64,000 bases of DNA from the NCBI GenBank assembly GCA_947501445.1, contig CANMVS010000021.1, forward strand, positions 1 to 64,000, in the 5' to 3' direction. The translations under genes were made by a program, and so were the position numbers. Of this stretch, positions 4,551 to 58,440 are shown one piece after another. Below the pieces are notes generated by a model. The model saw nothing but the letters and a program-made list of their open reading frames with translations, did not search any database and had not been told where the DNA came from. The first letter of the stretch is position 1. Each line of letters opens with the position of its first letter. This DNA comes from an uncultured Rhizobiaceae group bacterium. Its GTDB lineage: Bacteria; Pseudomonadota; Alphaproteobacteria; Rhizobiales; Rhizobiaceae.

Positions 4551-4553
<3 letters not shown>

Positions 4554-4652
4554 CGCAATTCAGGTTTTGGCGGAGACGGCAGGACCTGAATGCATCAATA
4601 AAATCCATGGCCGACACCGTTGTCCCGTACCTGACAAAACGTGAAACGGTCT
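4551..4652. repeat. Dispersed ~100-bp two-hairpin repeat, family 1, copy a
   Basis: One of six related copies in this window (others near 21963, 35853, 36607, 38470 and 58370). One end begins TAG-CGCAATTCAGGTTTTG and the other ends in ACAAAACGTGAAACGGTCT. The centre reads GCATCAA(C/T)AAAATC. The TAG is the glnK stop codon. In the better-preserved copies the two halves fold into separate hairpins. Here it fills almost the whole glnK-amtB spacer, so it is transcribed within the operon. Confidence 0.9.
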
Positions 4653-4673
4653 GGTGTTACAGGAGTAAACCCG

Positions 4674-6032
4674 ATGATTATGCCCAGAATTTTCAAAGCG
4701 AGCGCGGCACTGCTGGCGTTCGGCGCCACGGCACTGCCGGCCGCTGCTCAGGATGCGGCGGCACCCGGCACCGTGCCGACCGAATCAGTGTTCATCTTCA
4801 ATTCCCTGTTGTTTTTAATGTCCGGTTTTCTGGTCATGTTCATGGCGGCCGGTTTCGCCATGCTGGAAGCCGGCCTTGTGCGTTCAAAGAACGTATCGAT
4901 GCAATTGACCAAAAACATCGCGTTGTTTTCATTCGCAGCCATCATGTACTACCTGATTGGCTACAATCTGATGTATCCGCTCGGCAATTGGTCCATTGGA
5001 TCAGATGATACCGGCGGCTACCTTGGCGCATTCGGTGTCGCCGTGCTCGAGGCTGTCGGTGTTACATCGGACAAGGCTGATGATCTGTCCTATGCATCCA
5101 CCGGGTCGGACTACTTCTTTCAGCTGATGTTCTGTGCAACGACGGCGTCCATTGTGTCGGGCACACTGGCCGAGCGTATGAAACTGTGGCCGTTCCTGAT
5201 CTTCACGCTGGTTTTGACCGGATTGTTGTATCCCATTCAGGCGTCCTGGAAATGGGGCGGTGGATTTCTTGATACCCAGCTCGGCTTTCTTGATTTTGCC
5301 GGATCCACGGTTGTCCATTCCGTTGGTGGCTGGGCTGCGCTTACCGGTGCGATCATTCTGGGCGCCCGAAAAGGCAAATATGGTGCCAATGGTGCCATCC
5401 ATCCGATTCCAGGCTCGAATATGCCACTGGCAACCCTTGGAACCTTTATCCTGTGGCTCGGCTGGTTTGGCTTCAACGGCGGTTCGCAACTGGCAGCGGG
5501 TTCGATTGGCGATATTGCCGACGTTTCACGTATCTTTGCCAACACCAATGCGGGTGCCGCTGGTGGTGCCGTCGCAGCGCTGTTGTTGACGCAGATCGTT
5601 TACAAGAAGGTCGATATCACCATGGTTCTGAACGGTGCGCTTGCCGGTCTTGTGTCAATCACCGCTGAGCCTTTGACACCCGGCCTTGGCAGCGCGACAT
5701 TGATTGGTGCTGTGGGCGGCGTGATTGTTGTCTTTGCCGTTCCATTCCTGGACAAGCTAAAAATTGACGATGTTGTCGGTGCAATTCCAGTGCATTTGTT
5801 TGCCGGTATCTGGGGAACGATTGCGGTGCTATTCACCAACCCGGATGCAACCATCTACGGTCAGTTCGCTTCGATCATCATCGTTGGCGTATTCATGGTG
5901 GTATCTTCGGGCATTGTCTGGATGATCCTCAATGCCACGATGGGTCTTCGGGTCAGTGATGAGGAAGAGCAGGTTGGTCTGGACAAAATCGAGATTGGCG
6001 TCGAAGCCTATCCCGAATTCACCAAAATCTGA
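4674..6032 (+). CDS. amtB: Ammonium transporter AmtB with signal peptide
   Basis: Inner-membrane trimeric ammonium channel of 452 residues. An N-terminal signal peptide (SAALLAFGATALPAAAQDAA) is followed by 11 predicted membrane spans. The pore twin-histidine motifs are visible as DFAGSTVVHSVGGW and IPVHLFAGIWG, and the Phe-gate/recruitment region lies in FAMLEAGLVRSKN. ATG 4674 is chosen because AGGAG lies eight bases upstream; the frame extends 11 codons further into the repeat but without a ribosome site. It is co-transcribed with glnK and followed by a strong terminator. Confidence 0.93.
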   Translation: MIMPRIFKASAALLAFGATALPAAAQDAAAPGTVPTESVFIFNSLLFLMSGFLVMFMAAGFAMLEAGLVRSKNVSMQLTKNIALFSFAAIMYYLIGYNLMYPLGNWSIGSDDTGGYLGAFGVAVLEAVGVTSDKADDLSYASTGSDYFFQLMFCATTASIVSGTLAERMKLWPFLIFTLVLTGLLYPIQASWKWGGGFLDTQLGFLDFAGSTVVHSVGGWAALTGAIILGARKGKYGANGAIHPIPGSNMPLATLGTFILWLGWFGFNGGSQLAAGSIGDIADVSRIFANTNAGAAGGAVAALLLTQIVYKKVDITMVLNGALAGLVSITAEPLTPGLGSATLIGAVGGVIVVFAVPFLDKLKIDDVVGAIPVHLFAGIWGTIAVLFTNPDATIYGQFASIIIVGVFMVVSSGIVWMILNATMGLRVSDEEEQVGLDKIEIGVEAYPEFTKI

Positions 6033-6072
6033 TCGCTTCATTCTCACCAAACAGGGCGTATTGCGCCTGAAG

Positions 6073-6096
6073 AGGGCCCCTATATGGGCCCTTTTT
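6073..6096 (+). terminator. Rho-independent terminator after amtB
   Basis: A 7-bp perfect stem (AGGGCCC/GGGCCCT, 6073-6079 and 6086-6092) with a six-base loop, followed by a run of T. It lies 40 bp after the amtB stop and separates it from the second ammonium transporter unit. Confidence 0.85.
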
Positions 6097-6277
6097 GCTG
6101 GTTTATGCGCCGATTTACACAGTGACTGTTCCTGCCCGTAGCGGTGATGCCTATGAAATGAGCACGACAGGGCGGCTCGCCTAATAATGCATCAATTGGG
6201 CTGTGCACTGGATAAAAAATAGGCATTTGCACGAAAATCGACCTGCCTGCCCAGGAAAATGGCAGCAAATGCCGGGT

Positions 6278-6293
6278 TGGCATGAAAATTGAT
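6278..6293 (+). promoter_or_regulatory. Sigma-54 (-24/-12) promoter for second amt gene
   Basis: TGGCATG-AAAA-TTGAT matches the RpoN core with GG and the -12 element at the right spacing. A start of transcription would fall near 6305, about 25 bp before the ATG at 6330. Two TGCAC half-sites (6204-6208 and 6228-6232) lie upstream and are possible parts of an NtrC site. The upstream in-frame ATG at 6282 lies inside this promoter, so it cannot be the translation start. Confidence 0.68.
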
Positions 6294-6329
6294 TCTAACA
6301 GGCGAAACAGTCTGAAACGGAGTTTTTCC

Positions 6330-7553
6330 ATGGATCAATCACACGTTGGTGGTGATGTCTTTTTCGTGCTTATGGGTGCGATTCTGGTTTTTGCCATGCA
6401 TGGTGGTTTTGCCTTTCTCGAAGTCGGAACCGTGCGTCACAAAAACCAGGTCAATGCCCTGGTCAAAATCCTTGCGGATTTTGCAATTTCAACAATCACC
6501 TATTTCTTCGTCGGATTTGCTGTGGCCTATGGCGTCAGTTTTTTTGTCAGTGCGGCGACATTGTCGGGCGGGCAGAGCGGGGAGATATTCCTGCCACAGG
6601 GATTTACCCTGGTTAAGTTCTTCTTCCTGACCACATTTGCAGCGGCCATTCCGGCGATTATATCCGGTGGAATTGCGGAACGGATGCGGTTTCAACCGCA
6701 GTGCTTTGCCACGGTGGCGCTGGTTGGTCTGATCTATCCGTTTTTCGAGGGCATCGTCTGGAATGGTAATTTCGGATTGCAGGATGCACTGGAAGGCGCT
6801 TTTGGCGCACCTTTTCATGATTTTGCCGGTTCCATTGTTGTTCATGCCGTGGGCGGGTGGATCGCGCTGCCCGCGGTCATTTTGCTTGGTACACGCCTTG
6901 GCCGCTATACAAAATCGGGTAAATCGCATCCCTTCGCACCCTCTTCGCTTCCCTGGTTGGCGCTTGGATCCTGGTTGCTGTGTATTGGCTGGTTCGGATT
7001 TAATGTCATGAGCGCCCAATCGGTCGGTGGTGCCACGGGACTTGTCGCACTTAATTCACTGATGGCCATGGTCGGCGGCATTGTCGTTGCCCTGATCATT
7101 GGCCGCAATGATCCGGGTTTTGTGCACAATGGCGCTCTTGCCGGTCTTGTTGCCGTTTGTGCAGGTTCAGACGTATTTCATCCTATTGGTGCTCTGGTCG
7201 TTGGTGGTGCAGCCGGTTTGCTGTTTGTCAAAGGCTTCTCATGGTGCCAGGAAAAACTGAAGGTTGATGATGTACTGGGCGTTTGGCCGCTGCACGGTCT
7301 GTGCGGACTTTGGGGTGGCATCGCCTGTGGTATATTTGGCCTTGAGGCGCTGGGTGGCCTTGGTGGCGTATCACTGATGGCCCAGATTGTGGGCTCGGTC
7401 GGTGGTGCAATATACGCAGCCATCGGTGGATTTGTTGTCTACGGAATTTTGAAAACGACCACCGGATTGCGTATGAGTGAAGAAGACGAAATGCGCGGGG
7501 CTGACCTGTCGATCCACAAAATCGGCGCAAATCCGGAAGCGGAAATACGCTGA
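6330..7553 (+). CDS. amt: Ammonium transporter, second paralogue
   Basis: Inner-membrane ammonium channel of 407 residues without a cleavable signal peptide. It retains the family hallmarks: FAFLEVGTVRHKN, the first pore histidine in DFAGSIVVHAVGGW, FGFNVMSAQS, and the second pore histidine in WPLHGLCGLWGG. The start at 6330 has ACGGAG seven bases upstream and is placed just after a sigma-54-like promoter. It is shorter than and clearly divergent from the upstream AmtB and has no PII gene of its own. It is probably also nitrogen regulated, as a low-ammonium backup or sensor-like paralogue; that role is inferred. Confidence 0.88.
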   Translation: MDQSHVGGDVFFVLMGAILVFAMHGGFAFLEVGTVRHKNQVNALVKILADFAISTITYFFVGFAVAYGVSFFVSAATLSGGQSGEIFLPQGFTLVKFFFLTTFAAAIPAIISGGIAERMRFQPQCFATVALVGLIYPFFEGIVWNGNFGLQDALEGAFGAPFHDFAGSIVVHAVGGWIALPAVILLGTRLGRYTKSGKSHPFAPSSLPWLALGSWLLCIGWFGFNVMSAQSVGGATGLVALNSLMAMVGGIVVALIIGRNDPGFVHNGALAGLVAVCAGSDVFHPIGALVVGGAAGLLFVKGFSWCQEKLKVDDVLGVWPLHGLCGLWGGIACGIFGLEALGGLGGVSLMAQIVGSVGGAIYAAIGGFVVYGILKTTTGLRMSEEDEMRGADLSIHKIGANPEAEIR

Positions 7554-7739
7554 CAGCGGTCATGAATAAAGGCGCGCCGGTCGGACATTCCATTGGCGCG
7601 CATCACATATTGATGAACCCTGGACAATATCGTCCAAGTCTTATGCATGGTTAATGCGCCGTTAACTCCAATTCGACTAAACTCCAGCGCAATAGGGTGG
7701 TTGTAACAGCCCTCATGTGTTTCTGGTTGGAGTGTAGCC

Positions 7740-10409
7740 ATGCAAACGAGCAATCCAGTGGTGTTCGGCAGTCATTTTCTGTTGAACCTGAGGATTCCCG
7801 GATTTTTGAAGCGTCCCTTGCGGATTTTGCTGGCACTATTTCTGTTGTGTGTGCTGGCGATGGCCGTCGCGGCACTGGCAACCTGGAATATTGCCGATCC
7901 AAGTTTCAGTTATGCAACGGCCAATGCCCCTTCCAATGCGTTGGGCTTCACCGGCGCTGCCTTTGCCGACGCAACGATGCAGTTTTTTGGCCTTTCAGGA
8001 ATTTTGGCCCTTCTGCCACTGGTGATGTGGAGTGTCAGCCTGTTTCGCAATCGACCGGTTGATCGTATTGTTGCGCGTATGGCGGCATGGTTTTGCGGCA
8101 GCGTCCTCATGGCCTCGGTTTTTGCCTGCGTACCAGCACCGGACCGTTGGCCTCTGCCGACCGGGCTTGGCGGCGTATTTGGCGACATGATACTCAAAAT
8201 GCCGGCGGTTCTGATTGGCGATTACCCCTCGGGCATACTCGCTGTCGTACTGGGCGCGGCGCTGGCCATTCCAGCCGTATGGCTGATGCTCTTTGGTGCC
8301 TTGCTTGTTGCTGCACCCGAATATGAGTTGCAGGCCGACAAACGCGCGCCGGCAAGACGCGCTGCTGTTGAACCTGATGAGGCAGAGGATGATGAGCAGG
8401 AACGTGCCAGTACCGGCATGGTTTTCCTGGGCGCCCTCACCCACATGTGGTTTACGGCACGCGCACATTTCAGACGCCTGACCGGACGTGCACCTGATCA
8501 ATGGGCCTCAGGGCCGGACGAACCCTATGATTTCAATCAGGATGAATTCACCGGATTGAATGGGGATGCCGATTTTGCAGCAAACCCCGATTTCAACCCC
8601 GATGCAGACCACCCTGGTCACGGGCGCCATAACACCAATGAACGGATTGAACCGGCATTTGCGGCTGCAGATGATAGACAGGCGCCGCGTCAGCGTGTTG
8701 CCGATGATGATCTGCCGCCCTTTGACATGGGCAATGATCACGAGGATGACGCCGCCGCCGACTGGGCGCCGCAACCGGCACCGGCCCGTCGTGCAGCAGA
8801 GCCGGAAGGTCCGCGGGTTGTGGCACCGGTTAAACGTCCCGTTCCCGGCGCCCGAGTGCAACGCGAGGCACAATCATCAATGATCAGGAGCAAGGGGTTT
8901 GAACTGCCTCCCCTGCATCTGCTGTCCGCGCCGAAGAATGTCGTCAAGGATCCCTCTTTGTCAGCAGATGCCCTGGAGCAGAATGCAAGAATGCTTGAAG
9001 GTGTTCTGGAAGACTTTGGCGTGCGCGGCGAAATTATCCAGGTACGCCCGGGCCCGGTGGTCACATTGTACGAACTTGAGCCGGCACCGGGAATCAAATC
9101 GTCAAGGGTTATCGGCCTGGCAGATGACATCGCCCGCTCAATGAGTGCCATTGCTGCCCGTGTTGCTGTTGTTCCCGGGCGCAACGCCATTGGTGTTGAA
9201 CTGCCGAACCAGGGTCGGGAAACCGTCTATCTGCAGGAATTGCTGTCCAGCCGGGATTTTGAATCCAGCAAGGCGAAACTCGCCCTGTCGCTCGGCAAAA
9301 CGATTGGCGGTGGATCGGTTATCGCCGATCTTGCCAAAATGCCCCATCTGCTCGTTGCCGGAACGACCGGTTCGGGTAAATCAGTGGCCATCAACACGAT
9401 GATCCTGTCGCTGGTCTATCGCATGCCACCGGAAAAATGCCGCTTGATCATGATCGACCCGAAAATGCTGGAACTGTCTGTCTACGACGGCATTCCACAT
9501 TTGTTGACGCCGGTTGTTACGGACCCCAAGAAGGCGGTTGTTGCCCTCAAATGGACAGTGCGGGAGATGGAAGACCGCTATAAAAAAATGTCCAAGATCG
9601 GTGTGCGCAACATTGATGGTTTCAATAGTCGCATCGAGCAGGCCAGCAAAAAAGGCGAAGCGATTACCCGCACAGTGCAGACCGGGTTTGATCGCGATAC
9701 CGGTGAGGCTGTTTATGAAACCGAAGAGTTTGATCTGAGCCCAATGCCCTATATCGTCGTTATTATTGACGAGATGGCCGACCTGATGATGGTCGCCGGC
9801 AAGGATATTGAAGGCGCGGTACAGCGTCTGGCGCAGATGGCGCGTGCTGCAGGCATTCATGTGATCATGGCGACGCAGCGCCCGTCGGTTGATGTTATTA
9901 CCGGCACAATCAAGGCCAACTTTCCAACCAGGATATCCTTTCAGGTGACCTCCAAGATCGATTCGCGAACCATTCTGGGCGAAATGGGTGCCGAGCAGCT
10001 GCTGGGCATGGGTGACATGCTCTATATGGCTGGTGGCGGTCGTATCCAGCGTGTTCATGGACCCTTTGTTGCCGATGATGAGGTTGAAGAGATCGTCGCC
10101 TTTTTGAAAACGCAGGGTGTGCCCGAATATCTGGATGCCATTACCGAAGACGATGATGAGGATGGCGGTAGCGAGGGTGGCGGATCAGCCGGAAACCTGG
10201 GTGATTCGGATGACCCCTACGACCAGGCCGTGGCCGTGGTCCTGCGGGATGGCAAAGCCTCGACATCCTATATACAACGCCGGTTGGGCATTGGTTATAA
10301 CCGTGCCGCTTCCCTGATCGAGCGGATGGAAGAAGAAGGTGTCATTGGCCCGGCCAATCATGCCGGCAAGCGTGAAATCCTTGTTCCGACGGAAGAAGAT
10401 GTGTTGTAG
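7740..10409 (+). CDS. ftsK: DNA translocase FtsK
   Basis: Septal double-stranded DNA pump that clears and resolves chromosomes at division, 889 residues. The N-terminus has four predicted membrane spans (residues ~25-200). A long acidic, Pro/Ala-rich linker (~200-380) follows, then the motor domain with Walker A GTTGSGKS near residue 541, Walker [11 protein letters not shown] near 675, and [13 protein letters not shown]. The C-terminal gamma winged helix ([20 protein letters not shown]) binds the KOPS polarity sequences. GGAGTG lies just before the ATG. Encoded directly upstream of lolA. Confidence 0.95.
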
Positions 10410-20602: not shown

Positions 20603-21286
20603 TCAGGGGATGATCTTGTAGCCGCCACTTTCGGTCACAAGAATTTCTGCGTTGGAGGGGTCCCGTTCGATTTTCTGACGCAGACGGTAAACATGGGTTT
20701 CCAGTGTATGTGTCGTCACACCGGAGTTATATCCCCATACTTCCTCAAGAAGCACATCGCGGGTAACGACCTTCTCATCGGCCCGATACAAATAGCGGAT
20801 GATTGCCGATTCCTTTTCCGTCAGGCGGATCTTGCCACCTTTTTCATCAAGAAGCAGCTTCTGGCTTGGCTTGAATGTATACGGTCCGACAGAAAATGTG
20901 GCATCCTCGCTTTGTTCATGCTGACGCAACTGGGCGCGCACACGGGCAAGAAGAACCGCGAAGCGGAACGGTTTGGTGACGTAATCATTGGCACCGGCTT
21001 CAAGACCAAGAATGGTATCGGAATCCGTATCATGCCCCGTCAGCATGATAATGGGTGCCTTGAACCCACCCTTGCGCAATAATTTGACGGCTTCGCGCCC
21101 ATCCATATCAGGAAGGCCCACGTCCATGATCAATAGATCAATGTGATTGTTGCGGGCAGACTGGACGCCCTTCGTCGCTGAGGACTCCTCGATGATTGAA
21201 AATTCCTCGTAAAGAGAAAGTTGTTCAACGAGTGTTTCCCGCAGGTCATCGTCATCGTCGACGAGTAGGATTGTTCTGGCTGTCAT
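20603..21286 (-). CDS. OmpR-family response regulator
   Basis: 227 residues from ATG 21286, preceded by GGAGGG. The receiver domain has the acidic pocket VDDDDD, the phospho-acceptor Asp in LLIMDVGLPDMDG (~residue 55), and Lys in NDYVTKPF. The C-terminal winged helix contains LTEKESAIIRYLY and TLETHVYRLRQKIE. No histidine kinase is adjacent. It is divergent from an L,D-transpeptidase gene, an arrangement I believe recurs in Rhizobiales and which might indicate envelope control; I do not assign a symbol. Confidence 0.9.
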   Translation of the reverse strand: MTARTILLVDDDDDLRETLVEQLSLYEEFSIIEESSATKGVQSARNNHIDLLIMDVGLPDMDGREAVKLLRKGGFKAPIIMLTGHDTDSDTILGLEAGANDYVTKPFRFAVLLARVRAQLRQHEQSEDATFSVGPYTFKPSQKLLLDEKGGKIRLTEKESAIIRYLYRADEKVVTRDVLLEEVWGYNSGVTTHTLETHVYRLRQKIERDPSNAEILVTESGGYKIIP

Positions 21287-21407
21287 GCAGTCCCTCCAAA
21301 TGCGAATGTGCTTTGTCTGTCTTCCGGCTTTAGATAGTCCTGTTCGTCCAATAGTAAAAGTGCTGTACACGCATTGCACACTCAGCTGTGATCCCGGAGA
21401 TCAAATC

Positions 21408-21965
21408 GTGATTGACAAGATAGACAAGGATTGCGTCAAAAGCCAAGCACTTCAATCGGTTATTGTGCGTCGTCACCCACGTTTTATTACAAAAGCTATC
21501 ATAAATGCAGATGGCCGGGTATTTGTGGCAAGTCTGGGGCGAAGTGGAATTAATGCCTTCAAGCGTGAGGGCGATGGCGCAACACCATTGGCCGCCATGC
21601 GGATCACTCATGGGTTTTACCGGGCAGATCGGGTGCAAATACCGCCGACACGTTTGGACATGAAGCCAATCAGAGCAGATAATGGCTGGTGCGATGCACC
21701 GCATCACGCCAGCTACAACCGGCAAGTCAGGCTGCCCTTTGCGCACAGCAGTGAGAAATTGTGGCGTGCGGACATGCTCTATGACATTTGCCTCGTTCTG
21801 GACTGGAATTACCGCGCCCGCAGTCGCCATCGCGGCAGTGCCATATTCCTGCATATTGCCAATCCGAACGGAAAGCCAACAGAAGGCTGTATCGCCGTCA
21901 GTCTGAGGGACATGGTCCAGCTTTTGCACTCTGTCGGTCGCGATACAATTGTGCGCGTTGGCTAG
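21408..21965 (+). CDS. L,D-transpeptidase (YkuD) family protein
   Basis: About 185 residues with the YkuD active-site region near the C-terminus: FLHIANPNGKPTEGCIAVS, containing the conserved His and the catalytic Cys in GCIAV. Such enzymes form 3-3 crosslinks or attach proteins to peptidoglycan. No clear signal peptide is seen with this start. GTG 21408 is chosen because CCGGAGA lies eight bases upstream; the frame is open 41 codons further up, overlapping the start region of the divergent response regulator. The TAG stop coincides with the end of a dispersed repeat. Confidence 0.75.
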   Translation: MIDKIDKDCVKSQALQSVIVRRHPRFITKAIINADGRVFVASLGRSGINAFKREGDGATPLAAMRITHGFYRADRVQIPPTRLDMKPIRADNGWCDAPHHASYNRQVRLPFAHSSEKLWRADMLYDICLVLDWNYRARSRHRGSAIFLHIANPNGKPTEGCIAVSLRDMVQLLHSVGRDTIVRVG

Positions 21966-22064
21966 AGGAATTCATGTTTTGACGGCATCGGTAAAACCTG
22001 AATGCATCAACAAAATCAAAGGCCGACACCGTTGTCCCATTTCTGACAAAACGTGAAACGGTCC
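21963..22064. repeat. Dispersed ~100-bp two-hairpin repeat, family 1, copy b
   Basis: Begins with the TAG stop of the L,D-transpeptidase gene, continues AGGAATTCATGTTTTGACGG and ends ACGTGAAACGGTCC. Same orientation as copies a and d. The central GCATCAACAAAATCAAAGGC block is intact. It lies between the transpeptidase and the convergent DUF1761 gene. Confidence 0.9.
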
Positions 22065-22111
22065 AGAGATTGGCGAAAGTCAAATCTGCGTGTCGTCTGA
22101 TTTCATAGGAT

Positions 22112-31379: not shown

Positions 31380-31847
31380 ATGTTTGAACAACTGCAAAAA
31401 TTCATATCGTCGCTTGGCGGTGAAGAGCACACTGAACTGACCCGTAGTGATCCGCGTGTTGCGGCTGCTGCGTTATTTTTTCATGTTATTGACGCCGATG
31501 GGGTCGCAGAGCCCGCTGAGCGTGAAAAACTGCAACAATTGCTGGCCGAGCAATATGACCTTGATAAAGACGGCCTGCAGGAACTGATGGATGCGGGAAA
31601 GCGTGCTGAGGATGAATCGGTTGATTTCTACTCATCTACAAGCGTGCTGAAACGGTCGCTGGACGCTGAACAGCGCATTGGGTTTATCGAACTCATGTGG
31701 GAGCTCGTCTATGCGGATGGCGTACGCCATGAGCTGGAAGACAATGTTGTCTGGCGGGTGGCTGAATTGCTGGGTGTTTCTGACCGCGACCGCGTTCTGA
31801 TGCGGCGCAGAGTGGCTGCAAAGGCAGGTGCAGAGGACGAGCACTAG
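31380..31847 (+). CDS. TerB-family protein
   Basis: 155 residues with a TerB-like helical domain: DPRVAAAALFFHVIDADG, AEREKLQQLLAEQYDL and, in the second half, ELMWELVYADGVRHELEDN. The acidic DADG/YADG pairs may bind metal. Annotated in relatives as tellurite resistance family, but most housekeeping-context members have no tested function. The ribosome site is weak. Its TAG stop is the first three bases of an inserted repeat element. Confidence 0.82.
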   Translation: MFEQLQKFISSLGGEEHTELTRSDPRVAAAALFFHVIDADGVAEPAEREKLQQLLAEQYDLDKDGLQELMDAGKRAEDESVDFYSSTSVLKRSLDAEQRIGFIELMWELVYADGVRHELEDNVVWRVAELLGVSDRDRVLMRRRVAAKAGAEDEH

Positions 31848-32053
31848 ATCATGTCTTTTTCATACGGAACCATTTTCTGCCAGCCCTGACAGGGAGACGT
31901 TGTTGATATGCATAGACGAATGGGCCGGGCGATTTTGCCCCCTGACTGCGTTGGCTCGCACTTGTGGTGGGTTGGCACCACCGCGTGCAACCCGTCTTGT
32001 CAGAGACCAAAATCGCTTGGTCAAATGGTTCCGTATGAAAAAGATATGATCTA
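31845..32053. mobile_element. MITE-like element with 31-bp terminal inverted repeats, family 2, copy A
   Basis: The ends 31845-31875 and 32023-32053 are inverted repeats of 31 bp with one mismatch, starting TAGATCAT(G/A)TCTTTTTC. The inside (209 bp in total) has no protein gene. Both ends begin with TA, consistent with a TA target duplication as used by IS630/Tc1-type elements. The left TAG is the stop codon of the TerB gene, and the right end stops two bases before the next ATG. A larger relative lies at 55157-55550. Confidence 0.85.
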
Positions 32054-34704: not shown

Positions 34705-35169
34705 TCATGAGCCAATTTTGTGCTGGTTGTACATGTCCACCACGATTTGCCATCTGTCACCGTCGTGTTTGAGTGTGAAATTGTATGTGCCGGTATAATT
34801 CAGGTCAGATTTTTCAACCACGACGGTCGCATTACCAATCATGACCGCTTGGGTGCCATCGGCGGAGACAAAAAGATACTCAATCGTGTGACTCAACCTG
34901 CCTTTGTTTTCGCGGAGAGTTGTGATTGCACCGCGCAACACTTCGTCCCGTCCTTGTATCGGTTTTGACCCAGGTGAAACCCAGAATGCATCCTTATCGT
35001 AGAGTGAAATCAGGCCTTCCAGGTTATAGTTCGCGGCGTATGTATTGAATGTATCATTTAAGGTGATGAGGCTCTCCCGACTGACATTGGAGATGTCATC
35101 GGTCAGTGCTTGGGTGGTTGTAATCACCAGGACTGCGATTGTGGAGGCAATTTTTAATGGAAAGCGCAT
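34705..35169 (-). CDS. Exported SnoaL/DUF4440-like protein
   Basis: 154 residues. A signal peptide (LKIASTIAVLVITTTQALT) precedes an NTF2-like cone domain: LITLNDTFNTYAANYNLEGL, LYDKDAFWVSPGSKPIQG, and the C-terminal FTLKHDGDRWQIVVDMYN. Such domains serve as binding proteins or small enzymes; no function can be assigned. AGGGGATGA precedes the ATG. It is inserted between YggT and the DUF167 gene on the opposite strand. Confidence 0.78.
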   Translation of the reverse strand: MRFPLKIASTIAVLVITTTQALTDDISNVSRESLITLNDTFNTYAANYNLEGLISLYDKDAFWVSPGSKPIQGRDEVLRGAITTLRENKGRLSHTIEYLFVSADGTQAVMIGNATVVVEKSDLNYTGTYNFTLKHDGDRWQIVVDMYNQHKIGS

Positions 35170-35498
35170 GAGTTCATCCCCTGTTTAACGTATCAAAATG
35201 GACATTCAGTTCGCGATATGGAACGTGCCGAAGCGCCTTCTGCTAGTCATAATTATCAAAAATACTATCAAGACTGTTATCGTTAGCCAATATGACATTC
35301 ATTGAGATTGATGAGGGGGATTTATACATGCGATCCTCGTGCGTTTCGAAAGCCGTCTGCAAAATGGAGGTATTGGCTAAATGATGGAAAACGCAATCTT
35401 TGCAACTGATATCTGGCTTGGCAGTCGCTTTGATGTTGAAAAGGATTAGTGTGTTTTGCCGACAAATTTTCCGTCGAAACAGCGTGAGCGGGTTATGT
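35170..35498. other. 329-bp stretch without a convincing gene
   Basis: It contains the divergent upstream regions of the exported SnoaL-like gene and the DUF167 gene. A 96-codon leftward frame at 35243-35533 overlaps the DUF167 start region and has no domain or ribosome site support. I see no clear promoter or repeat. Confidence 0.5.
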
Positions 35499-35855
35499 AT
35501 GATATGTGGCAGCGTATCGGGTTTGGTGGACAAAACCGTGCAGGATAGCTGGTGCCGTGCAAACCCGGCAGGCCTCCGGATAACAGTGAGGCTGACACCC
35601 GGCGCAAGCCGCGACGGGTTGGATGGACTGGAATTCGGGGCCGATGGACGAAATTATCTTAAGGCACGTGTCACCCGTGAGCCGGAAAAAGGCAAGGCAA
35701 ACAAAGCGCTGATCGCCCTTGTTGCAAAAATATGCCGGTTTGGGAAAACGTCCGTAAAGCTCGTTTCAGGCGAAACCAGCCGGATGAAGACGCTGTCTAT
35801 TGACGGTGACAGTGGCGTCCTGAAGCGCAAAATTTGTGATGCGATGGCTGATTAG
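35499..35855 (+). CDS. DUF167 (YggU) family protein
   Basis: About 118 residues with the DUF167 core: LRITVRLTPGASRDGLDGL, YLKARVTREPEKGKANKALI, and VKLVSGETSRMKTLSIDG. The domain is small, cytoplasmic and of unknown function. The start is uncertain: the frame is open from 35400, ATG 35499 is taken as the nearest upstream to the domain, and GTG codons slightly further in are possible. The TAG stop is formed at the edge of a family 1 repeat. Confidence 0.8.
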   Translation: MICGSVSGLVDKTVQDSWCRANPAGLRITVRLTPGASRDGLDGLEFGADGRNYLKARVTREPEKGKANKALIALVAKICRFGKTSVKLVSGETSRMKTLSIDGDSGVLKRKICDAMAD

Positions 35856-35953
35856 ACCGTTTCACGTTTTGTCAGAAACGGGACAACAGTGTCGGCCTTT
35901 GATTTTGTTGATGCATTCAGGTTTTGCCGCACCCGTCAAAACCTGAATTGCTC
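35853..35953. repeat. Dispersed ~100-bp two-hairpin repeat, family 1, copy c
   Basis: Best-preserved copy, opposite in orientation to a, b and d. Starting at the DUF167 TAG, the first half folds as CCGTTTC...GAAACGG (7-bp stem). The second half folds as TTCAGGTTTTG...CAAAACCTGAA (11-bp stem). The middle reads GTCGGCCTTTGATTTTGTTG. Both ends share the pattern TTCASGTTTTGWC in inverted orientation. Confidence 0.9.
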
Positions 35954-36005
35954 CGGAGCGGATGGCCATCCCCATTCGGGAAACAAATCCCCAAAAACCG
36001 CTACA

Positions 36006-36497
36006 TCAGTAATATTTCATTTTCTTCCTGAATTTCAGATATTTCGTCACCGAAAATACGATGCCCAGCAGGCTGAATCCAATCAGGAACATAAGCGTCA
36101 GTGAGACATAATAATCAATGCCGAAGTCCTCAAGCCTGTCGGGGAACATGAAATATTCGGGGTAATCCGGATTGTAGATAACCTCTACAGGCAATCCAAT
36201 CGCATTATCGACGTTCAGCTCACGGTCGCGAAAGATTTTTTCCCCGGCATGAATGTCACCCTTTTCATCCTCAAATTGAACCACTCCAATGTATGGTGCC
36301 CGGACATCCTCCTGTGTTTTTCGAATTTCGACTATCCGCGCTACAGCGTCCGTGCTGTCCATCTGGATCAATGCATATTTGAGGCCATTGATAAAACTGA
36401 TGTTGAGCATGACGTAGGACGTCACGGCCATGATGATAAATATCCCGATCGATAATATGTATCGGTCCGCTTGCGCCTCTTTTGGCGAAAACGTCAT
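36006..36497 (-). CDS. DUF3592 family membrane protein
   Basis: 163 residues with one membrane span at each end (YILSIGIFIIMAVTSYVMLN and VSLTLMFLIGFSLLGIVFSV) around a beta-rich extracytoplasmic region. DUF3592 marks are VARIVEIRKTQ, GVVQFEDEKGDIH, and GLPVEVIYNPDYPE. Function unknown. ATG 36497 is used, but its GGAG lies only one base away; a TTG at 36512 is an alternative start. Confidence 0.75.
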   Translation of the reverse strand: MTFSPKEAQADRYILSIGIFIIMAVTSYVMLNISFINGLKYALIQMDSTDAVARIVEIRKTQEDVRAPYIGVVQFEDEKGDIHAGEKIFRDRELNVDNAIGLPVEVIYNPDYPEYFMFPDRLEDFGIDYYVSLTLMFLIGFSLLGIVFSVTKYLKFRKKMKYY

Positions 36498-36606
36498 ACT
36501 CCAATATGCCAATCCATTACGCTGACCTCCCTTTCGCCCCAGGTAACTCAGGTTTCAATCGGTGGTTAAAATCAACGCTCAAAAGGCCTGATTTCGTTTG
36601 GCCGAT

Positions 36607-36708
36607 TAGCGCAATTCAGCTTTTGACGGAACCGGCAAAGCCTGAATGCATCAACAAAATCAAAGACCGACACCGCTGTCCCGTTTCTGACAAAACGTGA
36701 AACGATCC
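36607..36708. repeat. Dispersed ~100-bp two-hairpin repeat, family 1, copy d
   Basis: Same orientation as copies a and b. It begins TAGCGCAATTCAGCTTTTG and ends ACAAAACGTGAAACGATCC. Unlike the other copies its TAG is not the stop of a recognisable gene; 36513-36606 may be the decayed end of a former one. The following 36709-36985 shows a 63-codon frame (36782-36973) with no recognisable feature. Confidence 0.88.
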
Positions 36709-36985
36709 AGAACGAGATCAAAGTCACGCCGCATTACTTGTTCAAATTGCTGATACAAGTAAATAAATCAGAATCTTTCGTATGAATTATGTCAACTCAT
36801 CCGGGAAATACAAGTTTATTTTCTCTTTTCACGTGCGTAATGAAAGTGGGCTGAAAACCCTCAGACGGTTTGGCCCGGAAGCAGGTGAAAGTCCTGAAGC
36901 TGATGATTTTGCGTCCTGCGCAGATCAGAAATTCAACCATTCAATCCGGGTGATGGGTCAGGGTCAGGTCTGAAGTTCTGTAATC

Positions 36986-37011
36986 AAAGGGGCCGCACAG
37001 GCAGCCCCTTT
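36986..37011 (-). terminator. Probable terminator after ppa
   Basis: An 8-bp perfect stem (AAAGGGGC/GCCCCTTT) with a ten-base loop, 15 bp beyond the ppa stop. The T-run is short on the minus strand, so termination strength is uncertain. Confidence 0.6.
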
Positions 37012-37025
37012 GTCAATGTCACCGG

Positions 37026-37559
37026 CTACTGTGCGGATTTTGCCCGCTCAATGGCTTCAACAATCAGTGTTTTGGCCCGGTTTGAGTCCTGCCAGCCACC
37101 AATCTTGACCCATTTTCCGGGCTCAAGATCCTTGTAGTGCTCAAAGAAATGTTCAATTTGCTTCAAGGTGATTTCCGGTAAATCAGTAAATTCGCTCACT
37201 TTTTCAAAGCGCTGGGTCAAATGCGATGACGGTACGGCAAGAATTTTTTCATCCTGGCCGGCATTGTCTTCCATGATCAATACGCCGACCGGGCGCACGT
37301 TGATGACACAACCGGGTATCAGCGGTCTGTTGTTGCACACAAGTACGTCAATCGGGTCGCCGTCGTCTGATAATGTATGGGGTACAAATCCGTAATTGCC
37401 CGGATATGTCATTGGAGTGTAGAGAAACCGGTCCACCACGAGTGTGCCTGCGTCCTTGTCCATTTCATATTTGATTGGATGGCCGCCAACGGGCACTTCG
37501 ATAATGACATTGATGTCATCGGGTGGTGTATCGCCGATGGAAATAGCGTCGATGCGCAT
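37026..37559 (-). CDS. ppa: Inorganic pyrophosphatase
   Basis: Soluble family I pyrophosphatase, hydrolysing PPi to drive biosynthesis. 177 residues, the usual bacterial length. Marks are [39 protein letters not shown] (with the metal-binding Asp cluster DGDPID), and the C-terminal VKIGGW. ATG 37559 gives the family N-terminus; the 42 upstream in-frame codons lack support. Confidence 0.95.
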
Positions 37560-37776
37560 AATGGATCCTGTGTTTGTCTGGTATGGCGTGGGGATAGCGC
37601 TTTGTTCGCTGCAGCGCAACATGTCTTTGGTATAGTCTTCAAAGATCATGTGTTGCCGGTCTGCCGGGGGCAGGTGGCAGACCAAAAAAGGCAGCTGTTG
37701 CGGTAATTCCGCACTCAGGCCATCATCCGCGCCAAATTTACCCTATGGAAAATGCAAAGTGCTTATGCGGTTTTGA

Positions 37777-38283
37777 TCAGGGCCATACGAACGCGAGTTT
37801 TCGTATGGCCTTATTGTCGAAGTTCTCAGAACCTTCAGCGATATCAATACCACCGAGCGCTGTGTAGAAATTCACCGCACGCTCGTTTTCTTCCAGTGTC
37901 CACACAACCATGCCCTTGCACCCCAGAGAACTCAGCAATCGTCTGGCCTCCCCGAACAGTTTACTGCCAAGTCCTATCCCCTGATATTCAGGCTTGAGAT
38001 AAAGCTCATAGATCTCGCCCTCCTGGGGCAGGGATCGGGCGCGGTTGAGGCCCAGTGTCGCATAGCCGGTTATTACGCCCTCGACTTCGAGCACCAATAT
38101 GCTGGTTGAACCGCGAATGGCATTCATCCACCAGGTGTAGCTGCGTCGCTCCACCATCGCCATCAGTGTCTTGTAGGGGATCAGTCCGGAATAGGCATGC
38201 TGCCACGCGGCACGATGTGTCTCGGATATCGCCAGGGCGTCATCCGGTTCTGCACGTCTCACATCTATTGCCAGTGTCGTCAT
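37777..38283 (-). CDS. GNAT family N-acetyltransferase
   Basis: 168 residues of a GNAT domain. N-terminal VRRAEPDDALAISETHRAAW and the acetyl-CoA site YLKPEYQGIGLGSKLFGEAR (R/Q-x-x-G-x-G/A pattern) are followed by VWTLEENERAVNFYTALGG. The substrate is unknown. A 10-bp perfect inverted repeat (37781-37810) lies in the last codons and could act as a 3' hairpin. Confidence 0.88.
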   Translation of the reverse strand: MTTLAIDVRRAEPDDALAISETHRAAWQHAYSGLIPYKTLMAMVERRSYTWWMNAIRGSTSILVLEVEGVITGYATLGLNRARSLPQEGEIYELYLKPEYQGIGLGSKLFGEARRLLSSLGCKGMVVWTLEENERAVNFYTALGGIDIAEGSENFDNKAIRKLAFVWP

Positions 38284-38469
38284 GACGGAATCCTAACCGT
38301 TTCGGTCCGAAACGCGAAGTGCTCCATGACCCATGTCGGTACGGTACCCACAGGTAATATGCCCGCGGTACGGCAACAGATTAACGGATTGTTAAACGAT
38401 CAGGCAAGGGAAGAAACGTTTTGCCCCCAATCTGCTGCGCAGATCAAAAGCAAAACGCTTGAGATTATT

Positions 38470-38574
38470 CAGACCGTTTCACGTATTGCCAGAAATGCGG
38501 CAAGGGTGTCGGCCTTTTATTTTGTTGATGCATTCAGGTTTTGCGGGTTGCGTCAAAACCTGAATTGCTCTCTA
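38470..38574. repeat. Dispersed ~100-bp two-hairpin repeat, family 1, copy e
   Basis: Same orientation as copy c. It begins CAGACCGTTTCACG and ends CCTGAATTGCTCTCTA, whose last three bases are the TAG stop of the leftward typA gene. The 11-bp hairpin of the second half is preserved; the first hairpin is weakened by changes. The stretch 38284-38469 before it shows nothing recognisable. Confidence 0.88.
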
Positions 38575-40398
38575 GGCAATCTGTGCAGATTTGGATTTTG
38601 CAAGCCGCTTGCGATCAACCGGATCAAGATAGATTTTACGAAGGCGGATTGTTTTCGGCGTGACTTCAACAAGCTCGTCATCCTGAATCCATGACAGCGC
38701 ACGATCCAGTGTCATGCGTACCGGTGGTGTCAGCTTGATCGCCTCATCTTTACCCGATGCACGCATGTTGGTCAGCTTCTTGCCCTTGAGGACATTGACT
38801 TCCAAATCGTTGGAGCGTGTGTGAATGCCAACGATCATTCCCTCATAGACCTTCTCACCGGCATCGATGATCATCGGGCCACGGTCTTCCAGGTTGAACA
38901 TGGCAAAGGCAACGGATTCGCCATTGTCATTTGAAAGCAGAACCCCGGTGCTGCGGCCGCCGATATCACCTTTGTAGGGCTGATAATCATGGAAAAGACG
39001 GTTCATGATTGCTGTGCCGCGGGTGTCCGTCAAAAGCTCGGACTGGTAGCCAATCAGGCCACGTGTTGGTGCATTGAATACCAGACGAACGCGATTGCCA
39101 CCGGACGGGCGCAACTCGACCATCTCGGCCTTGCGCTCGGACATTTTTTGAACCACGACGCCGGAATGTTCTTCATCAACGTCAATAACCACTTCTTCGA
39201 TTGGCTCAAGAAGCACGCCATCGTCGCCCTTTTTCATAACAACCCGTGGGCGGGAAACGGCCAGTTCAAAACCTTCCCTGCGCATGGTTTCAATCAATAC
39301 AGCCAGTTGCAACTCGCCACGACCGGAAACATAGATTGAATCCTTGTCTGCCGCTTCCTCGATCTGAAGTGCCACATTCCCTTCCGCTTCCTTCATCAGG
39401 CGATCACGGATAACACGGCTGGTCACCTTGTCGCCTTCCGTGCCGGCAAGCGGTGAATCATTGACGATAAAGGACATGGTCACGGTTGGCGGGTCAATTG
39501 GTTGTGCCGGCAGCGCTTCCTTGACTTCTGGCGCACCATAGGTGTCGGCAACGGTGCCTTTGGTCAGTCCGGCGATGGCAACAATGTCGCCCGCGCGGCC
39601 TTCTTCAATCGGTTGGCGCTCGATGCCACGGAAAGCCAGTATCTTGGATACACGGCCCTGCTCGATGAGCTTGCCGTCTGCGTCCATGACCTTGATAGGC
39701 TGGTTTGGCTTGATGCTGCCTGAATGGATACGTCCGGTGATGATGCGGCCGAGAAATGGATTGGCTTCCAAAATGGTGCCGATCATGCGGAATGGACCTT
39801 CACCCACATTGGGTTCCGGCACATGTTTGAGAACGAGATCAAACAGCGGTGTAAGCATCTCTTCCTTTGGACCCTCAGGGCTGTAGTTCATCCAGCCATC
39901 GCGGCCTGAGCCATATACGATTGGAAAATCCAATTGTTCGTCATTGGCGTCGAGTGCCGCGAAAAGGTCAAAAACCTCGTTGATCACTTCATCGGGGCGC
40001 GCATCGAACCGGTCGATCTTGTTGATTGCGACGATAGGCTTGAGACCAACCTTGAGAGCCTTGCCAACCACAAATTTGGTTTGTGGCATGGGACCTTCTG
40101 CGGCATCAACAAGCACAATGGCACCATCAACCATGTTGAGGATACGCTCAACTTCGCCGCCAAAATCGGCGTGTCCGGGTGTATCAACAATATTGATACG
40201 CACATCATTGTGGACCACGGACGTGGCCTTGGCCAAAATAGTGATGCCGCGCTCTTTTTCCAACTCGTTGGAATCCATGATGCGTTCGGCAACACGCTGG
40301 TTGTCGCGAAACGCGCCGGACTGTTTCAAAAGTTCGTCAACAAGTGTTGTTTTCCCATGGTCAACATGGGCGATGATCGCAATATTGCGCATAGACAT
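38572..40398 (-). CDS. typA: Translational GTPase TypA/BipA
   Basis: Ribosome-associated GTPase of the EF-G group that acts in stress and cold ribosome assembly. 608 residues. G1 is AHVDHGKTT, the switch region contains [13 protein letters not shown]3 is [15 protein letters not shown], and G4 is NKIDR. The C-terminal part includes [19 protein letters not shown] and the TypA-specific [20 protein letters not shown]. The stop codon lies in a family 1 repeat. Confidence 0.96.
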
Positions 40399-48837: not shown

Positions 48838-48858
48838 TATGGCGTCCTTTAATGTTGG

Positions 48859-54508: not shown

Positions 54509-54528
54509 AACGAAATGTTTTGTTTGAA

Positions 54529-54556
54529 AAAGGCGGCCTGCGGGTCGCCTTTTTTA
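54529..54556 (+). terminator. Rho-independent terminator after the Bax inhibitor-1 gene
   Basis: Stem AAAGGCG/CGCCTTT extended by GC pairs across a mismatch, with T7 after it, 20 bp past the stop. Confidence 0.85.
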
Positions 54557-54593
54557 TTGTCTTTGGGCGGTGTGTTCATAAGTGGGCTGAAGA

Positions 54594-55151: not shown

Positions 55152-55156
55152 GTGCA

Positions 55157-55550
55157 AGAGCCTGTCTTTTTTAAATGGAAACATTTGACCGGGTGATTTT
55201 GGTCACTGACAAGACCTATCTTCGCTTCCGCGAAGATAGGTCCCGATCCCTTTTTGGCGCATTGTCCTATCGGAATACTGTTTCACATTTTTCCGGAAAT
55301 GCTTAAGGCGGATTGCACGCAGTGGTGTCATCCCACCACAAGTGCGAGCCAACACTGTCAGGGGGCAAAATCACCCGGCCCATTCATCGTGGAATTTCAA
55401 CTGTTTCTGCCTGTCAGGGGTGACGGAAAGTCGGCCCATCAACGTCGTTGCGCCGCTTGCCCGATGCACCACATCGCGCTGCGCGACGCGCCTAGCCGAG
55501 TGGACCGACTTTCCGCCATCAAATGCTTCCATTTAAAAAAGATAGGTTCT
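55157..55550. mobile_element. MITE-like element with ~32-bp terminal inverted repeats, family 2, copy B
   Basis: The ends 55157-55188 and 55519-55550 are inverted repeats with three mismatches (AGARCCTRTCTTTTTTAAAT core). They closely resemble the ends of copy A. Internal blocks shared with copy A in reverse orientation include ATTTTGGTC...TGACAAGAC, CCACCACAAGTGCGAGCCAA and GGGGGCAAAATC. Copy B has two extra segments of about 100 and 75 bp. One carries a perfect 13-bp hairpin (55213-55242) followed by T5. The right end supplies the TAG stop of the DUF2794 gene. Confidence 0.85.
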
Positions 55551-55959
55551 AACCCCGAACGAGTTTGGCTGATTTGTCGAAGACCTTGAGAACATTTTCC
55601 AGTTCCTGGCCGCGTTTGACAATCAGTCCGCTGGCGGCAATCACGCTGAATGCACCCTGTTTTCGCGCCAGCCTGGGGTCTTTTTCAATGCGAAAAACCG
55701 GTACTTCGCTGCTGCGTTGAAATACAGAAAAAACAGCCTTTTCCTTGAGGTGATCGATCGCATAGTCACGCCATTCGCCCTCACCGACTTTTAGTGAATA
55801 TATACGCAGGATGGCGTCAAGCTCGCGTCTGTGAAAGGTGATAGGCAGTTGTTGTTTGTTTTTTCGGAACTCTTTGAGATCAACCAGTACGGATGATGAT
55901 CCCCGATTGTGCTGTCCCGAATTTCCGCCCATATCTGTACCCTTGTGATCCTGTGACAC
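55549..55959 (-). CDS. DUF2794 family protein
   Basis: 136 residues. A polar N-terminus is followed by the DUF2794 core FHRRELDAILRIYSLKVGEG, WRDYAIDHLKEKAVFSVFQR, and FRIEKDPRLARKQGAFSVI. It is found almost only in alphaproteobacteria and has no known function. Its stop codon TAG overlaps the terminal repeat of the MITE-like element, so the last codon or codons may have been changed by the insertion. Confidence 0.88.
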   Translation of the reverse strand: MSQDHKGTDMGGNSGQHNRGSSSVLVDLKEFRKNKQQLPITFHRRELDAILRIYSLKVGEGEWRDYAIDHLKEKAVFSVFQRSSEVPVFRIEKDPRLARKQGAFSVIAASGLIVKRGQELENVLKVFDKSAKLVRG

Positions 55960-56089
55960 CAGTGTGCCAGAAGAATACGGAATTGCAAGTGTGACAATGG
56001 TGGACGAGCGCGCGTGCCCAATGGCGCCGATTCAGGCTGTTATCTGCTGATCGGGTGTGGCACCGCCGGGAAGACAGATGTACCGGATT

Positions 56090-56848
56090 TCAGCTTGCAC
56101 CGTCGGTCATGACACTGGCTCCGATAATCGCGCCTGGTATTGTGTCGGACTTCATGGTTTGCAGCAAAATGGCACAGCCATCATAGCCTTTATTGCTTAC
56201 CATGGTGGCAGGCAGATCAACTTCCATTGCCTTGCCATCCCACATGCCTATCGTTTGCACATCGCGTACGGAGTGCCAATAGGTCAGTGCCTTACCGCGG
56301 TTCTCGCCGCGTTTGATCTGAATGGTGTTTTCGCTGTCAAAATAGACGATGACGATATTGGCTTTGCCTTGTCCTTCACCGACATTGATTTTGATCTTGT
56401 CACCTTCCAGTCTGGCTGAAACCGGGACGATCAGGCCGCGACCGCTTTTCTCGAACGCATCTATCTTGGCGTTGATGCCTTTTTTGTCTGCGCCATTGAT
56501 GTGGTCCCTGCCGTTGATGACCACCTGCGGTGTGTAAACGCTGCTGCGGCCCAGCGTGCGGGCATAATCGTACTGTCGGTCCGTGCTCTGCTTGGAGCTG
56601 AGCGTGTCCTTCCAGCCAAGATAGTTCCAGTAGTCTACGTGATAGGCCAGTGCCACCACATCACCCTGTTCGACGAGTTCACCCAATACGGCGTCAGCTG
56701 GCGGACAGGAGGAGCATCCCTGGCTGGTAAAAAGTTCTACAACACCCTTTGTTGCGGCATCCTCGGCTATGGCATTGGGTATGAAAACGGATGATATGAC
56801 AGTCGCTGCAACAATTGCACTGAGAAAATTTGTTAGATACCCCGTCAT
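56090..56848 (-). CDS. DUF1223 family thioredoxin-like exported protein
   Basis: 252 residues with a signal peptide (FLSAIVAATVISSVFIPNAIA). The DUF1223 domain has a thioredoxin-like fold with the CxxC site in FTSQGCSSCPPADAVL, and AYHVDYWNYLGWKD follows. The second half holds YTPQVVINGRDHINGAD. It is probably a periplasmic thiol protein; its redox partner is unknown. Confidence 0.9.
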   Translation of the reverse strand: MTGYLTNFLSAIVAATVISSVFIPNAIAEDAATKGVVELFTSQGCSSCPPADAVLGELVEQGDVVALAYHVDYWNYLGWKDTLSSKQSTDRQYDYARTLGRSSVYTPQVVINGRDHINGADKKGINAKIDAFEKSGRGLIVPVSARLEGDKIKINVGEGQGKANIVIVYFDSENTIQIKRGENRGKALTYWHSVRDVQTIGMWDGKAMEVDLPATMVSNKGYDGCAILLQTMKSDTIPGAIIGASVMTDGAS

Positions 56849-57148
56849 ACTTCACCTGCCCGTATCGGTCAAAATTGACCGTGAAATTGCATAGTTGTTT
56901 TACCGATGTGGCTGATCAAGATAAAGTCACGTTCCGGTGACAAAATCCACTGTGGCCAGCCAATATCCGGCAAAATTGTATCAATTGACCGACACGTCGT
57001 GATGAATTATTTATGTTGTTGATGGGCTCGGCGATGGCGTCGCCGGGCGAAAGACATCACAAATAGCAATGGATTGGCATCCTGCACGCCCGGATCACCT
57101 GCAGGGCGATTCCGTAGTCTTCGTCCTCAGGCAGATGGAGACCACGAT
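56849..57148. other. 300-bp divergent upstream region of DUF1223 and creatinase genes
   Basis: It should hold both promoters. I see no clear repeat, operator or small gene. The part 57074-57148 is open in frame with creatinase but lacks a ribosome site. Confidence 0.5.
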
Positions 57149-58372
57149 ATGACACAAGAAAACAGCAATCGACCGCAGTTTTTCAACCGCCAGGACGGCG
57201 GCAAGGCGCAATTGCCTTTTTCCCAAAGTGAATATGAGCGCAGGCTTGCCGCCCTGCGCAGTGACATGGATCGTATGGATGTCGAGGCGGTTTTATTCAC
57301 CTCGATGCACAATATTGCCTATTACTCGGGTTTTCTGTTTTGCAGTTTCGGCAGGCCCTATGCCTGTGTGGTGACCGCGGATCGATGTGTGACCATATCG
57401 GCCAATATCGATGGCAGTCAGCCCTGGCGTCGCTGTGTTGATGAAAATATTATCTACACGGACTGGCAGCGCGACAACTACTGGCGTGCCGTGCGTTCTG
57501 TCATCAAGGGTGACGGACGTTTGGGTATCGAAGCCGATCATCTGACCCTTGCTGCACGCGATGTGCTCCGTGTGTTCCTGGGTGCTGTCGAGCTTGTTGA
57601 CATGGCGCCAGCGGCCATGGCACAGCGGATGGTGAAATCCGCCGAGGAAATTGCACTGATCCGTGAAGGCGCGCGTGTTGCTGATATTGGCGGCGAAGCC
57701 ATTCGCGACGCCATCCGACCCGGAATCCGCGAGATTGATGTGGCCATGGCTGGCAGGGATGCAATGGAACTGGAGATAGCCAGAGCGCATCCGAACAGCG
57801 AAATGCGCGATAACTGGGTCTGGTTTCAGTCGGGCATTAACACAGATGGCGCCCACAATCCTGTTACAACCCGCCAGTTGGGTGTGGGCGACATTCTCAG
57901 CCTCAATACCTTTCCGATGATCTCGGGCTATTATACGGCCCTGGAACGTACGCTGTTTCTCGGCCAGCCCGATGATGCCTCACTGCACCTTTGGCAGATT
58001 AATGTCGGTGCGCATGAGTTGGGCCTTTCATTGATCAAACCCGGCGCAACCTGCTCTGGCATCTGTCGTGAAATCAACCGCTATTTCACAGATCATGGGG
58101 TTCTTGATTACCGCTCATTCGGCTATGGGCACTCATTTGGCATCCTGTCGCATTACTACGGGCGCGAGGCCGGTCTGGAATTGCGTGAGGATATTGATAC
58201 GGAACTGGTTGCCGGAATGGTTGTTTCAATGGAGCCCATGTTGTGGGTCCCGGAAGGCACAGCAGGTGCAGGTGGTTACCGCGAGCACGATATTCTTGTG
58301 ATCGCAGAACACGGCAGCGAAAACATTACCGGTTTTGGCTACGGACCTGAGCACAATATCATTTCTGCCTAG
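57149..58372 (+). CDS. Creatinase (creatine amidinohydrolase)
   Basis: Pita-bread fold M24-type hydrolase of 407 residues, predicted to split creatine into sarcosine and urea. It resembles Pseudomonas creatinase throughout: FTSMHNIAYYSGFLFCSFGR, WFQSGINTDGAHNPVTTR with the catalytic His236 (His232 in the P. putida enzyme), YYTALERTLF with Glu266, GYGHSFG, REAGLELREDIDT, and SMEPM. The metal ligands of M24 aminopeptidases are not preserved in the usual pattern, supporting creatinase over a peptidase. No creatininase or sarcosine oxidase is nearby. ATG 57149 has GGAG eight bases upstream. Confidence 0.87.
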   Translation: MTQENSNRPQFFNRQDGGKAQLPFSQSEYERRLAALRSDMDRMDVEAVLFTSMHNIAYYSGFLFCSFGRPYACVVTADRCVTISANIDGSQPWRRCVDENIIYTDWQRDNYWRAVRSVIKGDGRLGIEADHLTLAARDVLRVFLGAVELVDMAPAAMAQRMVKSAEEIALIREGARVADIGGEAIRDAIRPGIREIDVAMAGRDAMELEIARAHPNSEMRDNWVWFQSGINTDGAHNPVTTRQLGVGDILSLNTFPMISGYYTALERTLFLGQPDDASLHLWQINVGAHELGLSLIKPGATCSGICREINRYFTDHGVLDYRSFGYGHSFGILSHYYGREAGLELREDIDTELVAGMVVSMEPMLWVPEGTAGAGGYREHDILVIAEHGSENITGFGYGPEHNIISA

Positions 58373-58440
58373 ACCGTTTTACGTTTGTCAAAAACGGGAC
58401 AACGGTGTCGGCCTTTGATTTTGTTGATGCAATCAGGTTG
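58370..58440. repeat. Dispersed two-hairpin repeat, family 1, copy f (truncated)
   Basis: It starts with the creatinase TAG stop and continues ACCGTTTTACGTTTGTCA, then AACGGTGTCGGCCTTTGATT and TTGTTGATGCAATCAGG. The second hairpin of the full repeat is missing, so the copy is decayed or cut after about 70 bp. Same orientation as copies c and e. Confidence 0.85.

Follow-up and report, generated by a model that had tools for sequence, protein, structure and literature searches.

Several known bacterial elements resemble the one described here. RUP, a 107-bp unit present in 108 copies, uses TA as its insertion site (PMC2229807), and RU-1 can fuse to a gene and thereby remove its normal stop codon (PMC2759123). 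In Pseudomonas syringae, the miniature inverted-repeat transposable element (MITE) MITEPsy1 is 100 nt long with 18-nt terminal repeats, has CTAG or YTAA as target and is labelled 'IS5?' by its authors (PMC3189936). In Brucella, the insertion sequence (IS) IS711 duplicates the TA of YTAR (Y, pyrimidine; R, purine) and prefers the Bru-RS repeats (PMC2266754), which are intergenic and 103-105 bp long (PMC2267715). Here we analyze a new, high-copy MITE-like family with a 99-bp core, found in a 64,000-nucleotide stretch of an uncultured Rhizobiaceae bacterium (positions 1 to 64,000 of contig CANMVS010000021.1, assembly GCA_947501445.1; hereafter the window), whose ends repeatedly coincide with gene stop codons. 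Our reading, to which we give a probability of about 0.8, is that the element duplicates TA and targets YTAR, and that its residence at stop codons results mostly from the filtering of insertions.

Residence at stop codons and the insertion site

The repeat unit is non-coding and bounded by imperfect terminal inverted repeats, GAGCAATTCAGGTTTTGAC and GACCGTTTCACGTTTTGTC, as an initial sequence-only reading of the window had noted. With the adjoining TA, the core ends read TA-GAGCAATTC or TA-GACCGTTTCA, the commonest left flank being pyrimidine-TA and the commonest right flank TA-purine. The analysis covered 2,463,739 bases (window included), about 36% of a 6.82-Mb draft genome in 110 contigs. 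A profile search of these bases returned 238 matches, equivalent to about 660 per genome when scaled, while a 16-mer from the element's middle has 499 genome matches at two mismatches or fewer and its reversed control has none; the family size is roughly 500-660 copies in the 6.8-Mb genome. The core thus shares with MITEs its shortness, its lack of coding capacity, its terminal inverted repeats and its dispersal in many copies (499 core matches; 238 profile matches in 2.46 Mb). Clear ends define a full-length set of 171 copies, the other 67 of the 238 matches being partial, near a contig end or unclear at their ends. One of the 171 has no gene on one side, which leaves 170 for gene context; divergence (median 7%) and stem changes were counted on the 133 copies of exactly 99 bp. 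All gene-context counts depend on the gene calls, which come from a custom hexamer-based caller. Rfam covariance models had no match in the window at gathering scores, and none for copy 4 (Table 1) at E<=1.

At 54 of the 342 ends, in 52 of the 171 full-length copies, the flanking dinucleotide and the first core base together are the stop codon of the adjoining gene, 30 times at the left end and 24 at the right. Stops lying 1-10 bp from an end number 13 in all. The genome-wide tabulation of stop distances that the sequence-only reading had proposed thus gives a sharp peak at distance 0. Predicted genes contain none of the full-length copies. Among the 222 ends of 111 copies examined earlier, 30 are entered by a coding frame; 29 of these frames terminate at that very triplet (27 TAG, 2 TAA), one continues through it without a shift, and the shifted frames give 0 of 30. 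The base past the far dinucleotide is a purine at 50 of the 54 exact ends, as predicted by a TAA or TAG codon split at insertion. At C1 163638 and C1 167560 (contig and position), an isolated left end lacking the remainder of the element likewise starts at the stop codon of a gene, which shows the habit in truncated copies as well.

Tandem paralogous genes on contig C2 supply a filled and an empty site, both at a stop codon. The empty site reads CATTA-GCAATAGACATTAAAT and the filled one CATTA-[core]-TA-GTAATATACATTAAAT: one TA stands before insertion and two after, nothing is lost, and the doubled TA is a target-site duplication of the kind expected of a MITE. A longer duplication is rejected, with only one of 112 copies showing 3 bp and none 4-11 bp. 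The sequence-only reading had named a lack of stop enrichment, or orthologous loci of relatives without any empty site, as what would count against it; given the peak at distance 0 and the paralogous empty site, it was not refuted.

Subtracting 101 bp from the intergenic gap leaves zero or a negative value in three convergent gene pairs. At the convergent sites C5 270601 and C4 208186, the joined junction is TTAG or CTAA, that is, a pair of overlapping stops, and both genes now end in TAG. These two pairs apparently shared overlapping stops earlier, and the stop was apparently rebuilt there on both strands at once. It is these sites that point, indirectly, to the conversion of TAA into TAG put forward in the sequence-only reading.

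The six copies proposed for the window are all present in the places given, in both orientations (Table 1). The terminal TAG had been described as the exact stop codon in five of them; this holds for four (P-II/GlnK, YkuD, DUF167 and M24/creatinase), whereas the TAG of typA lies 2 bp off. Window gene identities (P-II, YkuD, DUF167, M24, TerB, DUF2794) rest on Pfam matches.

Table 1. Repeat copies and copies of a second element family in the window
Feature	Position	Strand	Description
Copy 1	4551..4653	+	core 4553-4651; left TA+G = stop (4551-4553) of P-II (GlnK-type) gene 4215-4553; right flank TG
Copy 2	21963..22065	+	core 21965-22063; left TA+G = stop of YkuD L,D-transpeptidase gene 21285-21965; right flank CA
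Copy 3	35853..35955	-	core 35855-35953; right end faces DUF167 gene 35400-35855, stop TA+G; far flank CG in element orientation
Copy 4	36607..36709	+	core 36609-36707; intergenic; no listed open reading frame of at least 100 aa ends there
Copy 5	38470..38574	-	core 38472-38570; typA (38572-40398, minus strand) TAG stop 2 bp outside core, beside apparent GA duplication (junction CCTAGA/GAGC)
Copy 6	58370..58456	-	shortened at far (left) end, covering profile positions 14-104 only; right end supplies TAG stop of M24/creatinase-type gene 57074-58372
Second element, different family	31845..32053	+	ends TAGATCATRTCTTTTTCATACGGAACC both sides; left TAG = stop of TerB-domain gene 31380-31847
Larger relative of second element	55156..55551		right end = TAG stop of DUF2794 gene 55549-55959 (minus strand); left end without a stop, flank CA

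Target choice and proposed mechanism

Whether stop codons are themselves the target depends on the background chosen. Against all non-coding YTAR sites, the 52 copies at stops exceed an expectation of 23.8 (P=2e-8, n=171), and an earlier null on 112 copies gave 33 against 16.2. Copies are also unevenly spread among gene arrangements: of 170, 70 lie in convergent gaps, where 30.1 are expected, and only 18 in divergent gaps, a depletion against 52.4. Once the null is matched for tetramer and gene context, the excess shrinks to 37 of 134 YTAR copies against 31.0 (z 1.3), and the stop codon itself is rejected as main target. By context, the counts at stops are 10 of 63 in tandem pairs (14.4 expected), 0 of 18 in divergent pairs and 27 of 53 in convergent pairs (16.6 expected, z 3.2). 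The matched control therefore indicates that residence at stops is mostly passive, with an extra convergent component. Over all 170 copies, taking any inferred tetramer, 52 at stops compare with 36.1 expected (z 3.15), and 40 of the 70 in convergent gaps with 19.7; given the former, some targeting of stops may still occur. The target is probably YTAR and not the stop codon as such. Of the earlier claim that a MITE-like element inserts at TA within stop codons, the TA duplication and the residence inside stops stand, and the targeting of stops probably falls.

We propose that a trans-acting transposase would cut at the core ends and join them to the TA of YTAR sites (CTAG, CTAA, TTAG, TTAA), duplicating the TA. 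Since the core has G at both ends, an insertion that splits a TAA or TAG stop at its TA would restore TA+G, that is TAG, whichever side of the element or orientation is concerned; the G-starting core would rebuild the stop and leave the protein unchanged. Insertions into coding sequence would be lost and those at stops and gene 3' ends would survive, so that stop residence would be mostly a survival filter on YTAR insertions, not a recognition of stops. The extra excess in convergent gaps may reflect the tolerance of insertions there. Such a scheme would explain how a compact genome holds hundreds of insertions without a copy seen inside a gene: TA duplication together with a G at each end would make stop codons safe ground, even a stop common to two genes. 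If it is true, stops are being pushed towards TAG, gene junctions are widened by about 101 bp, and CTAG sites are seeded that then erode or receive IS5-type insertions.

A stronger version is that this element lineage is suited to stop codons, its G-starting ends colonising even shared convergent stops, with the excess arising because insertions are aimed at, or advantageous in, colliding transcription units, and with several families of the genus behaving alike. We regard this as tentative and rather doubtful. The second family in the window has two copies, each meeting a gene stop at one end. Its interior has many matching places in three further genomes (G199, G164 and G085). In G199, related elements that measure about 213 and 300 bp and have the terminal TAGAGCAATTC in common form 17 end pairs, plus one lone end; TA flanks both sides in all 17, the search pattern itself having required TA. 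Of ten fetched G199 copies, three have a clear position at a stop and a fourth a weaker one.

Evidence from relatives and rival explanations

In the genus sample of eight genomes, the element is carried by two, its own genome (G000) and that of a sister species (G200). Among 199 family genomes, the own genome has its 499 core matches and the next highest 12, and in an order sample of 397 genomes, with the own genome as only member of the genus, a 21-mer matches that genome alone. A separate contig scan gave at least 16 matches, those listed all from one metagenome-assembled genome, and has no bearing on absence elsewhere. In 254 kb of the sister species, 13 of 25 matches are at stops, one of them at both ends, 12 of the 13 stretches having been picked around the best-scoring copies. 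Four orthologous genes (L149, L155 and L159 of the sister species against contig C3 of the own genome) have an element downstream in both species at differing distances, which hints at hot spots or at shifted shared copies.

The ends of the copies bear marks of decay. CTAG occurs at 0.355 of its expected frequency in the bases read. In CTAG context, TA is kept at 30 of 85 left ends after C and at 31 of 92 right ends before G; at other ends it survives in 18 of 23 cases following A, 33 of 58 following T and 49 of 71 preceding A. Eroded TA has mostly become CA or TG, and the changes at the two ends of a copy are complementary (CA...TG and TG...CA together 18, CA...CA and TG...TG together 3; P=0.002).

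Several observations weigh against a TA-duplicating, YTAR-targeting element filtered by survival. Roughly half of the flanking dinucleotides have ceased to be TA, and just 48 of the 171 copies show it on both sides. The single clean empty site is in a paralogue; cross-species empty sites at the nucleotide level are mostly unobtainable, the flanks being too diverged. A transposase with matching ends was not found in the own genome or the genus genomes. A warning comes from 51 reciprocal best pairs between the own genome and the sister species (at least 60% identity), in six of which one of the two stops carries an element: the other gene of the pair, free of it, has a TGA stop in all six, and the model needs TAA or TAG just before insertion. 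In the element-free background with TAA or TAG on the carrier side, the partner has TGA in 13 of 27 cases (own-genome side) and 4 of 18 (sister-species side). The tails of five of the six pairs differ, by 1, 2, 7, 7 and 8 residues, so their stops may be different codons; the sixth pair (92% identity) ends on the same last residue, with an element-free stop TGA. At typA, the seven relatives have no element in the 40 bases after the stop, and their stops are five TGA and two TAG; TGA is the stop of the TerB-domain gene next to the second family in six of six relatives.

Unequal tails could also mean that insertion near gene 3' ends truncated the protein at the element's terminal TAG, the coincidence with the stop being created by the truncation itself. 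The element-side protein is indeed the shorter beyond the alignment in four of the six pairs, by 1, 7, 7 and 8 residues, and the DUF167 orthologues align poorly at their C-end. Yet the duplicated TA and the purine that follows it indicate that the target codon was already TAA or TAG in frame, and frames 1 and 2, equally open to truncation, account for 0 of 30 ends. Moreover, typA ends in the seven relatives within one residue of its own length (607-609 codons by alignment over all eight genomes), and the P-II protein matches its Pfam model to the end. Truncation thus appears very unlikely. We give still less credit, indeed almost none, to a REP/BIME-type repeat (repetitive extragenic palindrome/bacterial interspersed mosaic element) moved by a RAYT (REP-associated tyrosine transposase, Y1). 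The element is small, very numerous, hairpin-bearing and extragenic, in line with that reading, but its inverted ends and TA duplication are unlike REP features; the genome has no intact Y1 transposase, its one Y1_Tnp match being weak (24.1 bits, cut-off 23) and containing an in-frame TGA.

The remaining alternative concerns RNA: the hairpins may form the 3' ends of transcripts or insulate convergent genes from each other, with the stop position selected, not just tolerated. The convergent excesses, in gaps occupied as in stops met, are consistent with this, as are predicted folds that are strong on both strands (z -4.6 and -3.9), a T-rich stretch after hairpin 2 on one strand, a weak orientation bias in tandem pairs (52 to 30, P=0.02) and, in hairpin 1, 16 pairing double changes against 5.4 expected. 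Hairpin 2, however, has only 5 against 3.8, and paired cells are barely above independence in either hairpin, the kinship of copies not being controlled. The two ends meet stops about equally, tandem pairs show no enrichment at stops, and positions 35000-39500 of the window contain three terminator-like sites against 4.9 in shuffles, one of them inside copy 5. Stem columns are slightly more conserved than the remainder (0.932 and 0.912). Judging from the stem-change counts, selection on RNA stems is weak at most. A terminator role is possible, and selection for it as the cause of stop residence seems unlikely; the 3' hairpin function proposed in the sequence-only reading is unsupported so far.

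Candidate transposases and comparison with known systems

TA duplication, as in IS630/Tc1-mariner elements, is seen here. DDE_3 is absent from the own genome; four of the eight genus genomes have it, with no matching ends nearby, and the seven DDE_3 loci scanned gave no shared ends. Between lone ends in the first 1.66 Mb there was no recognised transposase; one such pair, C1 151428 and 154838, could bound a 3.4-kb element, whose genes were not recognised as transposases from their first residues, no family search having been made. IS5-type DUF4096 is found at four places in the own genome, three of them over the cut-off, and two of the four adjoin a repeat copy. At L115 1404-2250, the IS5-type insertion shares the left TA of the repeat copy; at L114 it adjoins a copy and has CCA and TGG as flanks. 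The flanks of the repeat are YTAR-like, as for IS5/IS427, and the one IS with resolved ends has other ends (GGGCCYGTGGACATT).

A literature search, in which few subscription papers were covered, returned no description of MITEs rebuilding stop codons in this manner, and the words 'stop codon' are absent from the main text of a 2024 MITE review (PMC10969869). By description only, the element resembles RUP, Correia/NEMIS and ERIC/RU-1 in its length class (about 100-155 bp), inverted ends, TA termini and stable stem-loops. It departs from RUP, for which an IS630 partner is proposed, in that none was found, and from RU-1 in the fate of the gene: RU-1 can remove the stop, whereas the present element rebuilds it. 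MITEPsy1 makes a 4-nt duplication and is present six times in strain 1448A, with loci interrupted by two of the copies; the present element duplicates 2 nt and has hundreds of copies, none seen in genes. The element may also be likened, again by description only, to IS711 and Bru-RS, since one of its copies has its TA in common with an IS5-type insertion.

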